The translations under genes and the position numbers were made by a program. Below, one piece after another: positions 1 to 7,870 of a stretch of DNA of 64,000 nt. The stretch's first letter is position 1; the number at the start of each line of letters is the position of its first letter. Below the pieces are notes generated by a model. That model did no database searches and was not told the DNA's origin. It was given only the letters and a program-made list of their open reading frames with translations. The stretch spans positions 4,440,120 to 4,504,119 of the forward strand of contig OY101115.1 of the NCBI GenBank assembly GCA_956465555.1, given 5' to 3'. This stretch comes from Nitzschia sp. pyKryTriq1 (Eukaryota > Bacillariophyta > Bacillariophyceae > Bacillariales > Bacillariaceae).

Positions 1-2216
1 GACTTCTTGACTGTTCCCTTGGATTCAACCGAGGTAGCGGCGGCCATAATATCTCCGCTTGTTGTTCCGCCAAGGTTGTGTCCCGAAGAAGTGAGCGATG
101 TACTGCCAATCTTGACCTTGGCCGGAGGTAGAACACGCTTGACAGCCACCTTCGTCCCTCGGTACTCCCCAAGAATGACAACACCGAAGCCCCCTTGTCC
201 GATAATCTCCGGAGGCTCGTTAAAGTGAAGTTCTTCAACGTTGATATGCCAGACAGAGTCACTTTGTTTCTTCTTGTATCCCAAATAGAAGAAGACCATA
301 ACTCCCACGACAATAAATACGGCGGCAAAGATGATAAGGAAGAAATATGTCGACTCCATGCATTTTGAGCCCATCTCAAACGTGTCGCCAGCACAGACGC
401 ACTCGCCCATCTCGTCGGGCACGCGATGACTTCCTTGGCCGTATACTGCTTCACATTCTTTGAAAAAAACAAGAGCAAAAGAAGTTGTTAGTTCCGCGAG
501 TGACGTAAACCCCATTCCATAATGACAGCAGAAATACTTACTTTTGTCCTCAACGATTACGCGAATGGGAGATTGTGAGATGGGTTTCCCGTTGACTTTG
601 ATGTCGATAACTTGAACTTGAACTTGGTCGTCAGACAAGGTGAACTCGTAGGCATAGGTGCCATTGAGATTCGTCACTTTCAGATTGGTTGTATAGTCTC
701 CGGCGTGTGAAACTACCTCGACTTCGACATCCTCCCGTTCCAAGTTGTCATAGATGCGAAGTGTAATACTTTCGCCTTGCTCGATGGTACCACAGATACT
801 CATTTTCTCGCATCCAGGAAGAGCATCGCCATAAAACAAGATGAGGTGGGGATCCTCCTCGTCTTCTTCAACATGATACACATCAACCTCGAAAGCCTTG
901 ACGCAAGGTTTGCAAAAGCAGTCATAGCCTTCCCCGTCATCGCAGTCTAATCCAATCTCACCGCACCCGCCAAAGAATTCTTTTTGGTGCCTCTTGAAGT
1001 ACCCTTCGGGACATGTAATGCCTTCCCAAAGATTGGAAGGGCGGGTACAGTACCAATCGTTTTTTTCATCCTGGACCAAGAACCCAGCTTCTTCCTGCAT
1101 GGTCCGAAGCTCAAAGTACGAGCGCGCAGGGCGAAAGCCTGCAATATGGCTGATTTCCGCCCCCTCTGCTGCCAATAGCGCAAGGACATTATTTGCACCA
1201 CACGGAGCGTTGGGTATCATGTCACGGATCGACAGGGAGTCACACGATTGAGTCTCATTAGTGGCAAGGCAATCGTCGAGCAAGCCACCCATCTCCGCAT
1301 GTTGGCCAAATTCCATCAAGGCGTCTTGAACAGCAAGCTGTACAGCACCGGGGACGGAAGGGAGGGCAGCAAAGGGCCACTCCGGGAAGATGTCAGTCGA
1401 GTGGAGGAAGGGGAAGAGTTCACCCGAGTCCATCACGAAGATCTTCGGATCGATAATCTTGAAGAGGTCGGGATCCACGTAGTCACCGTTCTCGTCCGTG
1501 GTAAGTTCGATTTGGTCTGTACGAATGAATCCAACATCAAAGCGTCCACTGAGAACGCCGTGCACGACATCGTTTTCATCGTTGGTGAAGATGAACTGTT
1601 TGGGGTCGTTGACATAGGACATGCCCGCCCTTTCCATCTCGTAGATTTGCATTTGACCTCCCATAAGATCAGTGATGCCTCCAGCTCCGATGATCTTGTC
1701 CTTGAGGTCAGCGATTGTGTTAATATCGTCGTTGTCATGGCGGACAGCGATGACACCGCCATACACATCAAGATCGAAGGTACGACCTCGGGTCTCGAGG
1801 CGACTGACGACCGTCGCGAGAGCAGTGGCTCCGACTTGAGTACCGATACAGGAGTAAACTCCAGGATTGGCATAGAGAAAGTCCAGTTCATCATTCTCGA
1901 TAGCCTCGAATATTCCATCGAAGTAGTAAGGTACCACTTTGAAGTCAATCGGAGGGTCGAATTTCTGGCCGGCCGTTGCCGTTAGAAAGTCAGCAAAAAC
2001 TTTATAGTTATTATCATATACAACTTCCAAAGCCATCGTCCCATGAATGCCAACTGTGTAGGAAGTTTTCTTCTGAACGAACGAGTCGAGCTTGATTTTG
2101 CTGAAACCGCACGCATCCACATTGGACGAGGACGACACTTCTCCGTCTTGTTGGGCAACGGCGATTCGCAAGAGAACCAGCAACAACGGCACATGGATCA
2201 TGTTGAGAGACTTCAT
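1..2216 (-). CDS. Receptor-like protein kinase with PhnD-type ligand-binding ectodomain (3' partial)
   Basis: Two exons on the minus strand: 2216-542 and 457 to beyond the left edge. The intron 541-458 has a GTAAGT donor and a CAAAG acceptor and keeps the frame (AAA|A + AA). The protein begins with a signal peptide (residues 1-21). About 52-330 resembles periplasmic phosphate/phosphonate-binding proteins (PhnD/PF12974 type): a YTVGIHG start, then a FLYANPGVYSCI stretch and a GRFDVGFIRTDQ stretch. A cysteine-rich EGF-like part (about 390-430), a beta-sandwich-like part (about 432-557) and a second Cys cluster follow. One membrane helix lies at about 597-617, followed by KKK. The kinase domain then starts, with the glycine loop GQGGFG (645-650) and VAVK (Lys 665). 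The catalytic loop lies outside the window. I infer a plasma-membrane receptor sensing a small, perhaps phosphorus-containing, ligand. The 1.7-kb exon 1 is fully open. Domain order is seen; the ligand is inference. Confidence 0.85.
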   Translation of the reverse strand, partial: MKSLNMIHVPLLLVLLRIAVAQQDGEVSSSSNVDACGFSKIKLDSFVQKKTSYTVGIHGTMALEVVYDNNYKVFADFLTATAGQKFDPPIDFKVVPYYFDGIFEAIENDELDFLYANPGVYSCIGTQVGATALATVVSRLETRGRTFDLDVYGGVIAVRHDNDDINTIADLKDKIIGAGGITDLMGGQMQIYEMERAGMSYVNDPKQFIFTNDENDVVHGVLSGRFDVGFIRTDQIELTTDENGDYVDPDLFKIIDPKIFVMDSGELFPFLHSTDIFPEWPFAALPSVPGAVQLAVQDALMEFGQHAEMGGLLDDCLATNETQSCDSLSIRDMIPNAPCGANNVLALLAAEGAEISHIAGFRPARSYFELRTMQEEAGFLVQDEKNDWYCTRPSNLWEGITCPEGYFKRHQKEFFGGCGEIGLDCDDGEGYDCFCKPCVKAFEVDVYHVEEDEEDPHLILFYGDALPGCEKMSICGTIEQGESITLRIYDNLEREDVEVEVVSHAGDYTTNLKVTNLNGTYAYEFTLSDDQVQVQVIDIKVNGKPISQSPIRVIVEDKSKYFCCHYGMGFTSLAELTTSFALVFFKECEAVYGQGSHRVPDEMGECVCAGDTFEMGSKCMESTYFFLIIFAAVFIVVGVMVFFYLGYKKKQSDSVWHINVEELHFNEPPEIIGQGGFGVVILGEYRGTKVAVKRVLPPAKVKIGSTSLTSSGHNLGGTTSGDIMAAATSVESKGTVKK

Positions 2217-4020: not shown

Positions 4021-4978
4021 ATGGTTGGCTCTCGACCTAATCTAATTTCCATGGAAGGCATGATTTGGAATGGTAAGAAGAAGAAGACGAAACAGAAAAT
4101 CCACACCACATAATGGTGACATAAATACCCCTTCCGGTTCTCATAAGGCGACGATGACCCATTTTTGTTGTCACTAAATTGCTTTCCTTTCCTTTCCTTT
4201 CCTTTCTTCCAACACCTGCACTGCACATCCCACGAGTATAGCCAACCATGTGATGACGTACGCCTTGGATCCTGGACTTCGTGGTATTCCCAAGGGATAT
4301 TTCATGTCCTGCGCGGGAGTGGTCATTCTCCATTCCGTCCAGGCCGGATTCATGTTCTCGGGAAGTGTAGGTACGGGAATCTTCCTCCGACGCGGTCTGG
4401 ATGGAAAGTGGAGCAACCCCGTAGCTTGCGGTGTGGCAAGTATTGGCGCCGGATTTCAGATCGGGGCCGCCATGAAAGATGTCATCATTTTCTTGCCCGA
4501 CGATGAATCGGTCCAAACGTTATTCAGCAAGGGTGTCACGGTGGGCGCCCACTCGGATGTGACGATTGGAGTGGGAAGAGAGTTTGAAGGAGGCATGGGC
4601 GCTTCGGGAGCAGGTATGTCTGCGATTATTAGTATGGCTTATACCAAGGGAGCCTTTATGGGTGCCTCCATGGAGGGAGCCTTTGTTTCCCCTCGTCGCG
4701 GGGCCAACGAGGCCTTCTATGGTCCAGGCAACGGTAATCCAAAAGATATCATTGAAGGAAAGGTCCTATTTCCTTCCCACAAGGTTACCATGATGGAAGA
4801 ACTGACAGATAAACTCGAAAAAGCGTGCCAAGGTATCAGTGAGAAGATTGGCGATGCGGAAGCGAAGAAGGCGGAGCAAGCTGCCGCCGAAGCCGAAAAG
4901 GCAGCGGCAACTGTCAAAACGACTGCATCGGATATTGTCGAATTCGATGCCAAAGAAGCAGCCTCCGAACAGGCCTAA
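4021..4978 (+). CDS. Ysc84/SH3YL1-type lipid- and actin-binding domain protein
   Basis: Two exons, 4021-4072 and 4242-4978, give 262 aa. Exon 1 begins MVGSRPNLISMEGMIWN and ends at a GGTAAGA donor. The 169-nt intron ends after a CCTTT-repeat pyrimidine tract at TATAG, and the join (G + CC) restores the frame before NHVMTYALDPGLRGIPKGYF. The body matches the Ysc84/DUF500 fold (PF04366): a GVVILHSVQAGFMFSGSVGTG block, a glycine-rich core and DVTIGVGREFEGG. In yeast and animals this domain binds phosphoinositides and actin patches during endocytosis. No SH3 domain follows; the tail (about 190-262) is a charged Ala/Glu/Lys helix. A shorter start at 4253 is possible if the intron is wrong. Confidence 0.72.
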
Positions 4979-6043
4979 CTACAAAATAGATATAGTCCAT
5001 CGGATATGGTCGTGGAAATACTATATATCCTCGTTCGAAATGCTACCAGTATACTAATTGATTACTGATAGTAGGACGAAGTATTACTGCACGAACTTCG
5101 TACTCTCGTTAGCTAGCTCTAGAGCTAGCTCTAGCTAGAGAGAGAGAGAGAGAGCTTACTAGTACTCGCTACTAGAATAGCACTCGATAAGCGGCGCCCC
5201 GCTGTAATTTCTTTTCGTTGGTCGTTCTTGGCACTTCTTGGAAGAAGTGGTGGATCCCCCCAAGAACAATACCCCAAGAACAATAGTCTCCAAGAAGAAC
5301 GACAAAAAGTAGAATGCTGCAGTGCGCCGAGGACCACAACAAGAAGGAGGGATTTTTTACTCCAGTACTATGCCTGAGGTTCTTGGAGGATGAAATAGAT
5401 AACCTTGAGATAGTAGTACCAAGAACCAGCAGCACGACATGAAACTTATCAGAATGATAGTACTACTGCTCGTCCTACTTGGTAGTAGTAGTTACTACTG
5501 TACGTACGAGTACACTACGGCCGGCCAGTAGTACTATGAGATCTACCGTAACTAGTAGTAGAGAGTCTAGCTAGTAGAGAACAGAACTGGCGACTGCTTT
5601 CATGGAGTACCAGGTACAAGTACTGTGTCCCATTGTAGTCTACTGCTCTGCCCCTGGCTATTATTAGTCCTGTAGCTGGGCTGCACCACCGTATGTTGAC
5701 TGATGATGACGGGAGTGACGTTGTCTGTTCTCCCCCTTTTCTCGGAAGTACAATAATCACATCTTGATCTCCCCGTCCACCCCCCGTTTTTGACTTTATT
5801 GTACACCCCCCTTACTGTACCGGTACAGTAAACGTACCGCGGTGCCAAAATACCGGTACAGTATCTACCCGAAGCGCGTGCTAACGGTAATATCCAGAAC
5901 CCATAGAACATGTAGAGAAGACATCGCGACAGTTCACGCATGTCACATGGCACGCAATGCTACTTGTAGATCAACAAAACTATTCATATATTTCAGTCAA
6001 TACAACCATCTCTTCAAGCTGTAGATCGTTGAATCTCAAGAGC
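4979..6043. other. Intergenic: short palindromes and small internal repeats
   Basis: No gene recognised. Around 5110-5155 is a CTAG/AGAG simple-sequence tract. Around 5255-5300 the motif CCCAAGAACAATA recurs at short intervals. CCGGTAC-type palindromes cluster at 5815-5865. Open frames here look random. Confidence 0.4.
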
Positions 6044-7870
6044 ATGTCGAATGTGATTGAAAACGTCATCGTTCAAGTGAGTGTTTTGGCAGGCAAAGAT
6101 TTGGTCGCCAAGGATAAAAATTTACTCTGGCGCAAAACGACATCGAACCCGTATGTCGAAATTCGAAAGGGAACTACCGTTGGTGGTGCTTCTAGCGTTT
6201 CCAGCAAGATTTTTGGAACGACGAAGACTCAATACAAGACTCTCGATCCTACGTGGGGGGCGGCGGGCAACACCAACAATGAAACATTCGTTGTGGAGTT
6301 TTTCGATGAAGAATGTTTCCAGGAACCCTGTCTGGAGTTGAAAGTCTGGAGTAAACAGGATACCAAAAAGGAGGGGGGTCATGCTGCCATGGGTACCATC
6401 CAGATTCCCATCACGGTGGACAAGAGTCAAAAACAAATCACGACGACCGAGTGGTATGATATTCCACCCGACTCGGCCAAGGATGCCAAGGGACAACTTC
6501 ACGTCCAGCTCGATATTTCCTTGGTCTATGCCAAAAGTTTGATTCGAGGAAATCAATTTCCATTGCAGGGAGATTACATTCAAGTAGGATTGGCGTGGGA
6601 CATGTTGCCAGGACGTACGGCAGTCGATCTCGATGTATCCTGTGTCGCCATATCCAAAACGGGAGGTCAGGTCATTATGGGAGATACCGTGTATTATGGA
6701 AACGTCGCGAATTCCAATGAATCCGTCTTGCACAGCGGCGACGAACAAGTGGGAGACGAAGATGGCGATGATGAAAAGATTATTTTCGAATTGCATCGCG
6801 TTCCAGATCGAGTATTGTGCATGTATGTGGTTTTGACCGTGGCGACGCCGAATATGCGGATCGGCGACATTGAATCGACGACGCTACGTGTCTATGATAC
6901 CAAAAAAGGTACCACGCTCTGTAAATTCACCCCAGCGTCTGCAGCCATGAGTAAGAGTCATGACTCGACCGCCATGTTCATGGTACGAATCGCACGACAA
7001 AAGGGATCGAGTAAAAAGTGGATCTTGGCGACTATTGAAGATACGCATCCGACGGCTAGAGACTTTGGATCACTCATCCCCTACATGAAAAGTTATACGC
7101 GTGACTTGATTCCCGACATTAATGTGGATCCATCCGAACGAGTGGCGATTATGCGAAAGGGAGGAAACGTTCGATTGTCAGATTATACCAAGGGGGGGAC
7201 CCTTCCCGATCGATTGACGTTTGGGCTAGCCTGGGATGTCACCGATGGTGTCAATATCGACCTGGATGCCTCCGCTGTTTGTTTCGATTCGGATTTGAAT
7301 GTGACTGATATTGTCTGTGGAAAACAAACGCGCAGGGGTACGAATACTAATATCATCATGGCCGCAACACTACAGTCGGCCGATGGAGCCATTGTACATC
7401 AAGGGGATGAGCAAGAAGGAGATGAAGTTGGTGACGATGAAATGATCAACATTTCACTCAGCAAGGTCGATTCGAACATTCAATACATTGCCTTTGTCAT
7501 CAATTCCTACAGTGGACAAGAGCTGGATGATGTAGATCGAGCTGCATGCCATTTATTTGATCCAGAAACAGCCGCCGACATTGCCACGTATGCCATGACA
7601 AACTCGGCGTCTTTAGACGGTTTCACGGCCCTTCTGGTTGGGTGCTTGTATCGAGCTGGAACCACCAAGGGTGGACAAGAGTGGTGTTTGTGCATCATTT
7701 CCAATGCAGCCATGGGCATGGTGGTTCAGGATTGCATTCCCGACTTAAAGGACTTCCTAAAAGCATCACCACCGCAGACTCCACCTAAAGGCGAAAGCAA
7801 TCCAGAGATCAACACGGTCATGGAACGTCAAATGCCGGTGGTCGTTCCGATAGCCGAAGACGAGGAATGA
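6044..7870 (+). CDS. C2 domain protein with two TerD domains
   Basis: Single exon, 608 aa. An N-terminal C2-like beta-sandwich (about 5-135) begins VIENVIVQVSVLAGKDLVAKD and contains the usual NPYVEI and LDPTWG positions. Two TerD (tellurium-resistance type) domains follow. Each carries the acidic calcium-binding signature: HSGDEQVGDEDGDDE near residue 230 and HQGDEQEGDEVGDDE near 452. Each has a GLAWD strand with D-x-D just after it (AVDLDVS, NIDLDAS). TerD proteins bind Ca2+ and in bacteria belong to Ter stress operons; C2 domains bind membranes in a Ca2+-dependent way. I infer a Ca2+-responsive membrane-associated protein. I chose ATG 6044 because the C2 homology starts there; an in-frame ATG at 5957 would add 29 featureless residues. 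Confidence 0.85.
   Translation: MSNVIENVIVQVSVLAGKDLVAKDKNLLWRKTTSNPYVEIRKGTTVGGASSVSSKIFGTTKTQYKTLDPTWGAAGNTNNETFVVEFFDEECFQEPCLELKVWSKQDTKKEGGHAAMGTIQIPITVDKSQKQITTTEWYDIPPDSAKDAKGQLHVQLDISLVYAKSLIRGNQFPLQGDYIQVGLAWDMLPGRTAVDLDVSCVAISKTGGQVIMGDTVYYGNVANSNESVLHSGDEQVGDEDGDDEKIIFELHRVPDRVLCMYVVLTVATPNMRIGDIESTTLRVYDTKKGTTLCKFTPASAAMSKSHDSTAMFMVRIARQKGSSKKWILATIEDTHPTARDFGSLIPYMKSYTRDLIPDINVDPSERVAIMRKGGNVRLSDYTKGGTLPDRLTFGLAWDVTDGVNIDLDASAVCFDSDLNVTDIVCGKQTRRGTNTNIIMAATLQSADGAIVHQGDEQEGDEVGDDEMINISLSKVDSNIQYIAFVINSYSGQELDDVDRAACHLFDPETAADIATYAMTNSASLDGFTALLVGCLYRAGTTKGGQEWCLCIISNAAMGMVVQDCIPDLKDFLKASPPQTPPKGESNPEINTVMERQMPVVVPIAEDEE

Follow-up and report, generated by a model that had tools for sequence, protein, structure and literature searches.

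The natriuretic-peptide receptor NPR1 (GC-A) has an ectodomain with a binding-protein fold and a pseudokinase as its kinase domain, class III cyclases function as dimers, and AioX and ArrX act in sensing together with histidine kinases. To our knowledge, little is settled about how the surface of a diatom cell senses bacterial chemicals and nutrients from outside; a 2021 paper in Current Biology reportedly deals with diatom phosphorus sensing and calcium. The receptor gene studied here lies at the edge of a stretch of 64,000 nucleotides (hereafter the window) of contig OY101115.1 from the diatom Nitzschia sp. pyKryTriq1 (assembly GCA_956465555.1; 40.65 Mb, 20 contigs). Window position 1 corresponds to C1:4440120, where C1 (which carries the window), C2, C3, C15 and C16 are contig labels, loci being labelled L011, L013 and so on. 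Among the systems closest to it, ThsS and TtrS are reported to carry PhnD-like sensor domains that answer thiosulfate and tetrathionate, respectively (PMC5408782). Diatoms are described as having many receptor-type guanylate cyclases, whose expression changes with bacterial compounds (PMC7296067); diatom guanylate cyclase (GC) genes are reported to respond to sex pheromone (PMC8027222) and, in other diatom species, to change expression with sexual cues (PMC8027222, PMC5485032). A diatom receptor with a substrate-binding head was not found among the matches listed in searches of the open-licence full text of PMC, a source outside which most subscription papers lie. While the receptor-cyclase layout is already known, a predicted receptor guanylyl cyclase/kinase bearing the head of a bacterial sensor clade, as encoded by this gene, would be new.

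Gene structure and domain architecture

The coding sequence (CDS) of the receptor is located on the minus strand and spans C1:4438055-4442335 (1398 codons), with 2216 bases within the window, read as 2216-542 joined to 457-1, and 2065 beyond its edge; the window holds the 5' half of the gene. A sequence-only reading of the window had proposed a binding-protein domain and, in fusion with it, a eukaryotic receptor kinase that retains its GQGGFG loop and VAVK Lys. Indeed, the profile search of the ectodomain that it had suggested returned PF12974 above the cut-off (Table 1), GQGGFG and VAVK are both present, and Pfam recovered, on the full 1398-residue protein, PF12974, Pkinase at residues 808-1021 and Guanylate_cyc at residues 1073-1260 (2.7e-53). 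The fusion is thus confirmed and is larger than first reported: because the gene runs off the window, only about half of it had been seen, with the fusion and its domains rightly read, and the cyclase output beyond the edge adds to what was an incomplete picture. The layout of a receptor guanylyl cyclase is present in order, i.e., ectodomain, one transmembrane (TM) helix, kinase-family domain and class III cyclase, followed by a tail rich in Asp, Glu and Ser. HisKA and HATPase_c were absent from the full protein in the Pfam search, both being present in the paralogue L017.

The earlier proposal of a single membrane helix agrees with the one strong hydrophobic segment of the protein (residues 590-621, where the mean hydropathy reaches 3.17), and structure prediction of the ectodomain, also suggested by that reading, placed the PhnD-like AioX and ArrX among the top fold matches. 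Its EGF-like and beta-sandwich parts fared less evenly. The EGF-like module has four Cys and no Pfam match; the beta-sandwich part contains beta strands in the predicted model, with a ten-residue mean predicted local distance difference test (pLDDT) score of 53-81, and its filamin score (PF00630) was 19.8 bits with exon 1 alone and 18.4 bits with the full protein, both below the cut-off of 26.9. With exon 1 alone as the query, the PDB yielded just two sequence matches, near E 0.5, both to elongation factor 3A.

One intron was modelled in the CDS (GTAAGT...CAAAG; Table 1), and its removal is well supported, since its borders are canonical, the near-identical copy on C3 carries a frame-breaking extra base, and the paralogues L013 and L014 are continuous at the junction, with introns in L015 and L016. 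In the C3 copy, reading through the 85-nt intron ends the frame (594-codon frame) and splicing restores 1398 residues; the 542/457 junction is intronless in L013 and L014, and L015 and L016 carry introns of 83 and 93 nt there. The join of 542 to 457 in the original gene model is therefore backed by comparison between copies.

The kinase, whose best PDB match was the plant CTR1 (1e-36, the query being taken without its long insert), is of the tyrosine kinase-like (TKL) type and looks active. It retains the Gly loop (residue 645), VAVK (662), HGDLKAKN (894), DFG and APE, and the Gly loop, VAVK Lys, alpha-C Glu, HxDLKxxN, DFG and APE were recovered at all six distinct PF12974 loci of the genome, L017 having MSPEL where the others have MAPEY. 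The best PDB sequence match of the cyclase was the atrial natriuretic peptide receptor 1 (2.1e-47). The metal Asp, the Glu of FKVETIGD and NTASR are kept in the window gene, and the motifs FSDIVGF, FKVET(I/V)GD and NTASRME occur at the five PF12974 loci, out of five, that have a cyclase domain. At the second purine-pocket position, Gly is found within NPRYGLFGDTVN in the five PhnD-headed copies, with Cys in NPR1 and in a PstS-headed copy presented below. The roles of the metal Asp, of the guanine-selecting Glu and Cys and of NTASR are our assumption, under which the class III cyclase is predicted to be guanylyl-type.

Kinship of the sensor domain with bacterial signalling proteins

By profile, tree and signature Arg, the sensor is grouped with the sensor domains of the TtrS/ThsS type and not with transport PhnD. 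In NCBIfam, TtrS ranked first (1e-9), ahead of the ABC substrate-binding protein (SBP; 1.1e-6) and PhnD (1.6e-5); the match to the TtrS equivalog NF040750 (37.4 bits) covers its sensor part only and does not reach the 750-bit cut-off. When plasmid records were searched with the sensor domain by tblastn, 24 gave a match, with proteins annotated as sensor histidine kinase (8), ATP-binding protein (6), PhnD/SsuA/transferrin substrate-binding (9) and hypothetical (1). The six plasmid loci that were inspected encode proteins of 589-1094 aa, and a response-regulator gene adjoins five of them.

Then, a profile built from the six diatom sensors only (A2) was run on 15 bacterial genomes, selected because each holds such a locus. 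Its 21 matching stretches fell within 20 frames, the shortest of 577 aa and the longest of 1217 aa. When the 40 PF12974 domains of at least 80 bits in these genomes were considered, A2 matched all 20 of those in long frames and none of the 20 of transport type, 19 of the latter lying in frames of 281-351 aa and one in a frame of 722 aa. Both histidine-kinase boxes were present in 15 long frames and the G-box only in one; by eye, two looked like PAS-GGDEF types, PhnD-PAS-GGDEF(-EAL), and the last two were assigned on length alone. Such varied outputs indicate that bacteria already combine this head, as a sensor module, with different outputs. A first contig scan of genomes with the diatom-only A2 gave 190 stretches and no relatives, and a second one, with bacterial rows added, at least 574 relatives among at least 593 stretches. 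A frame and motif scan of the best 80 of these relatives found H-box and G-box in 73, the G-box only in two, the H-box only in two and neither in three; both H-box-only frames and one of the three with neither end at contig ends. Because the second scan was built on a motif of the same clade, it cannot alone prove a signalling-only clade, and the 15-genome test is free of this bias in its scoring, not in the choice of genomes.

In a midpoint-rooted tree of 63 rows, which took 32 of the best 80 loci, the six diatom and 37 signalling rows stand together, apart from 20 transport rows, with a support of 100/100. The six diatom rows form one clade (100/100), their branching among the nearest bacterial kin not being settled by the tree. 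Six of the 20 transport rows sit on long end branches, five rows are of odd make-up, and the rows L110 and L118 are one gene. The tree does not include ThsS and TtrS, to which the sensor is connected by its TtrS match in NCBIfam and by the common PhnD-like sensor-kinase layout. Arg232 is present in all six diatom and all 37 signalling rows and in none of the 20 transport rows, and Trp280 is conserved with the diatom and signalling rows and likewise missing from the 20 transport rows. For 32 of the 37 signalling rows, the pattern used in the scan included Trp280 and not Arg232. Transfer would have run from a bacterial sensor to the diatom, a direction that we infer, since midpoint rooting was used.

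Ligand of the sensor domain

According to the sequence-only reading, the receptor might link phosphorus supply to signalling. It now appears very improbable that phosphonate, phosphite or phosphate is the ligand and that the ectodomain signals how much phosphorus is available. The STS-H motif (S124, T125, S126 and H155 in Ps_PtxB) is replaced in the window gene by DLM at residues 183-185 and E at residue 214, and in the paralogues by DLM-Q or GLG-Q; the two PtxB alignments differ by one in register at the STS site, with STS in neither. STS or SNS was found in 0/6 diatom, 0/37 signalling and 14/20 transport rows, and the ligand His in 0/6, 3/37 and 16/20, respectively. Phe268 aligns to the capping Tyr of Te_PtxB (Y208) and is Phe in all six diatom rows, a comparison that covers diatom sensors versus PtxB, the column being a gap in the 20 transport rows. 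Substitution Y208F in Te_PtxB is reported to have essentially abolished the binding of phosphate and methylphosphonate (PMC5700983). Besides, profile, tree and Arg232 place the sensor with signalling domains. A lone P1BS-like site, GNATATNC, which we take to be the P1BS motif, occurs in about 1.5 kb upstream of the gene, and 17 occur across the 64-kb window, which gives no sign of phosphorus control. Phosphorus sensing by the window gene was rejected on ligand residues, profile and tree, the promoter motif having given no support.

It is possible, though doubtful, that a sulfur oxyanion or a sulfonate is sensed instead, such as thiosulfate, tetrathionate or an organosulfonate that passes between diatom and bacteria. 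This would be in line with the reported responses of ThsS and TtrS (PMC5408782), with the dsrO/nrfD or cytochrome c genes that adjoin the bacterial kin at four of the six plasmid loci inspected, and with Arg232, which is common to the signalling clade and would suit an anion. However, identity between the diatom sensors and the 62 bacterial rows is no more than 19-31%, and the lobe-2 loop of the diatom sensors reads DLMGG, as against mostly AFGG(F/Y/W), and hence specificity has probably shifted. Moreover, close folds take varied ligands, ArrX and AioX having been solved with arsenate, arsenite, sulfate, phosphate and others.

We consider it unlikely that the ectodomain binds no small solute and is structural or protein-binding, e.g., for a peptide or a pheromone. 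The type I binding-protein folds of the natriuretic-peptide receptors offer a parallel for such a role, the phosphonate-binding residues have been lost, Cys-rich, filamin-like and EGF-like modules have been added, and pennate diatom genes of cyclic guanosine monophosphate (cGMP) signalling are reported to respond to sex cues (PMC8027222, PMC5485032). Against this reading, D227, R232, S273 and W280, in common with bacterial sensors, are kept in all six diatom rows, and conservation of the ectodomain among the paralogues is highest over residues 95-274, probably in part through gene conversion. A small anion would be the likeliest class of ligand.

A family of predicted receptors in the diatom genome

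PF12974 was found at 10 places, corresponding to six distinct loci, four on C1, one on C15 and one on C16, the C3 counterparts of the four C1 loci having equal or nearly equal scores. All six are fused to the same kinase type and five end in a cyclase. In the sixth, L017 (C16:1112363 region), a PhnD-like head and a TKL kinase are followed by HisKA-HATPase-receiver, and the filamin-like part is missing. A search with the kinase C-lobe returned 12 places at 1e-25 or better, i.e., the ten PF12974 places, a broken copy on C3 and C2:3726159. The last one belongs to L020:2857-6267 (C2:3724356-3727766), where a PstS-like head and a hydrophobic segment precede the same kinase-cyclase. This head matched PF12849 (8.4e-16) and the PstS model TIGR00975 (1e-34, 120 bits, below the cut-off of 205). 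In the PDB alignment to 2z22, which we take to be a Yersinia-type PstS with residue roles likewise presumed, the head retains Asp56, Arg135, Ser139 and Gly140 at the aligned positions and has Gln in place of Thr141. The alpha-C Glu pattern was unmatched in the L020 protein in the motif scan of the kinases. On its sequence, L020 is a fair candidate for a phosphate receptor and would suit the phosphorus idea better than the window gene.

Identity at fourfold-degenerate sites is patchy along the sensor. Between the window gene and L013, it amounts to 68/78 over residues 95-274, with 3/14 in the flanking codon window before and 8/19 in that after; with L015, it is 43/44 over residues 155-274, then 5/16. 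L014 and L015 have common conversion-like tracts in the stalk and cyclase too. We read this pattern as recent gene conversion, which would have homogenised much of the binding region of the sensor among the paralogues (residues 95-274).

An artefact of assembly or annotation is hardly credible, whether a diatom kinase wrongly linked to bacterial DNA or a pseudogene. Some sequence is duplicated between C1 and C3, and a broken partial copy lies at C3:3500112, as could be expected from such an origin. Against it, six loci on C1, C15 and C16, four of them with C3 counterparts, have the same head-kinase architecture and open frames, three of the five cyclase-type copies carry the junction intron, and gene conversion appears to have acted between copies. 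Contamination or a chimera was ruled out by the six loci, the introns and an assembly that carries silicon transporters (PF03842 at 8 places, best 6.9e-266).

The broken copy (C3:3500112 region, L031:4736-5452) is a partial kinase-cyclase that runs into sequence recurring upstream in the locus, with no C1 counterpart among the matches listed. Separately, PstS-like (PF12849) genes in several frames each are located at L033:1029-2915, L034:730-2723 and L035:1354-3104; by eye, they have a hydrophobic stretch close to the C-terminus, after which no kinase was seen, and the one in L033 lies about one kilobase before a separate cyclase/phosphodiesterase-like gene.

Proposed mode of action and its implications

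The gene probably encodes a single-pass, solute-gated receptor kinase/guanylyl cyclase of the plasma membrane with a bacterial-type sensor head. The outer clamshell, of the TtrS/ThsS type, would bind a small, probably anionic solute and close. Closure would be relayed through the filamin-like/EGF-like stalk and the single TM helix to the cytoplasmic TKL-type kinase, which would respond, and the class III cyclase pair behind it would be aligned and make cGMP. Because such cyclases work as dimers, the switch is likely a ligand-driven rearrangement of the receptor dimer, like that of the natriuretic-peptide receptors.

Some observations weigh against this scheme. An insert of about 140 residues lies between VAVK and the alpha-C helix of the kinase, which it might render regulated or inactive. 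The guanylyl call rests on one residue, the Glu in KVET, with Gly in place of Cys, and hence an adenylyl or mixed activity is possible. As for the head, the NCBIfam scores are far under the curated cut-offs of TtrS, ABC SBP and PhnD alike; its PDB sequence matches are transport proteins (PtxB), with no TtrS/ThsS-type structure among the matches listed; and a first AlphaFold2 (AF2) model, from six rows without bacterial sequences, reached a pLDDT of 49.9 and was set aside.

A receptor of this kind would place the sensor clade of bacterial signalling proteins, apparently, on eukaryotic kinase and cyclase outputs, in an architecture that parallels the natriuretic-peptide receptors of animals with a different binding-protein fold. 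The family constitutes a defined set of candidate receptors with a soluble, expressible head, and ligands can therefore be screened directly. More tentatively, it might represent a diatom class of solute receptors in which PhnD- or PstS-type bacterial heads are set on a eukaryotic kinase, with a cyclase or a histidine kinase/receiver as second output; the PstS-headed member would be a phosphate receptor making cGMP, and L017 a relic of the bacterial sensor kinase ancestral to the PhnD-headed set. With L020, the question of a diatom phosphate receptor becomes directly testable. If true, this member would detect extracellular phosphate directly, as an upstream phosphate sensor, and we know of no diatom in which a sensor of such kind has been described.

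Features of the window and genomic context

Table 1. Features of the receptor gene, in window coordinates.
Feature	Position	Strand	Residues, basis or remarks
Exon 1	542..2216	-	residues 1-558 and first base of codon 559; open frame, donor GTAAGT; signal peptide, PhnD-like sensor domain, Cys-rich stretch, filamin-like domain
Signal peptide (putative)	2154..2216	-	residues about 1-21; hydrophobic N-terminus then AVAQQ (sequence inspection alone)
Type II binding-protein (clamshell) fold	1047..2084	-	residues about 45-390
PF12974 Phosphonate-bd match	1272..2021	-	residues 66-315; 1.8e-29, 103.3 bits, cut-off 27
Cys-rich stretch	903..1049	-	residues 390-438, 7 Cys; sequence
Filamin/Ig-like beta-sandwich	564..779	-	residues 480-551; PF00630 19.8 bits, cut-off 26.9
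Intron	458..541	-	84 nt, GT..AG; C3 copy with frame-breaking extra base; paralogue comparison
Exon 2, part in the window	1..457	-	EGF-like module, TM helix, kinase start; continues to C1:4438055
EGF-like Cys module, juxtamembrane	360..455	-	residues 560-591; four Cys, by eye
Single transmembrane helix	282..353	-	residues about 594-617; hydropathy
Start of kinase N-lobe	1..215	-	GQGGFG at residue 645, VAVK 662-665
Remainder of kinase and cyclase	outside the window	-	kinase to about residue 1022; cyclase 1073-1260

Elsewhere in the window, the divergent neighbour of the receptor gene encodes a Ysc84-domain protein (4250-4975; PF04366, 2.2e-23), and one protein at 5957-7867 combines a C2 domain with two TerD stretches (PF02342, 1e-49). 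Matching genes were observed near both contig ends on C1 (about 4.33-4.61 Mb of 4.74 Mb) and C3 (about 3.19-3.46 Mb of 3.61 Mb), including four PF12974 loci and an ANF_receptor gene, with L011 and L012 96-98% identical where aligned; five silicon transporters of C1 have no C3 counterpart. This common block is a duplication or a haplotype effect. ANF_receptor domains gave 7 matches elsewhere in the genome.

Comparison with known systems

Like the window receptor, TtrS and ThsS have the sensor outside, a TM segment and the kinase inside, and by profile, tree and signature residues their sensors would belong to the same clade. They differ in their HisKA/HATPase output, where the window receptor has a TKL kinase and a class III cyclase, and paralogue L017 a TKL kinase preceding HisKA-HATPase-receiver. 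They are also without the diatom stalk modules, and the diatom sensors have diverged from the bacterial rows to the low identity given above. PhnD, PtxB and HtxB are free-standing transport proteins, whereas the window sensor is without STS-H and the capping Tyr, fused to a receptor and separated from the 20 transport rows by a 100/100 branch. AioX and ArrX, PhnD-like as well and among the top fold matches of the window sensor, exist in the periplasm as proteins of their own, with structures solved in the presence of arsenite or arsenate, whereas the window sensor is part of its receptor. The GC/phosphodiesterase fusion proteins of diatoms are described with a topology unlike that of the window receptor (PMC8027222). 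Finally, NPR1/GC-A has in common with the window receptor one TM helix, a kinase-family domain and a class III cyclase. Its ectodomain is of the type I ANF_receptor kind, whereas that of the window receptor is a type II (PhnD-like) clamshell; besides, the kinase of the window receptor keeps its catalytic motifs, and Gly occupies the position of the purine pocket that is Cys in NPR1.

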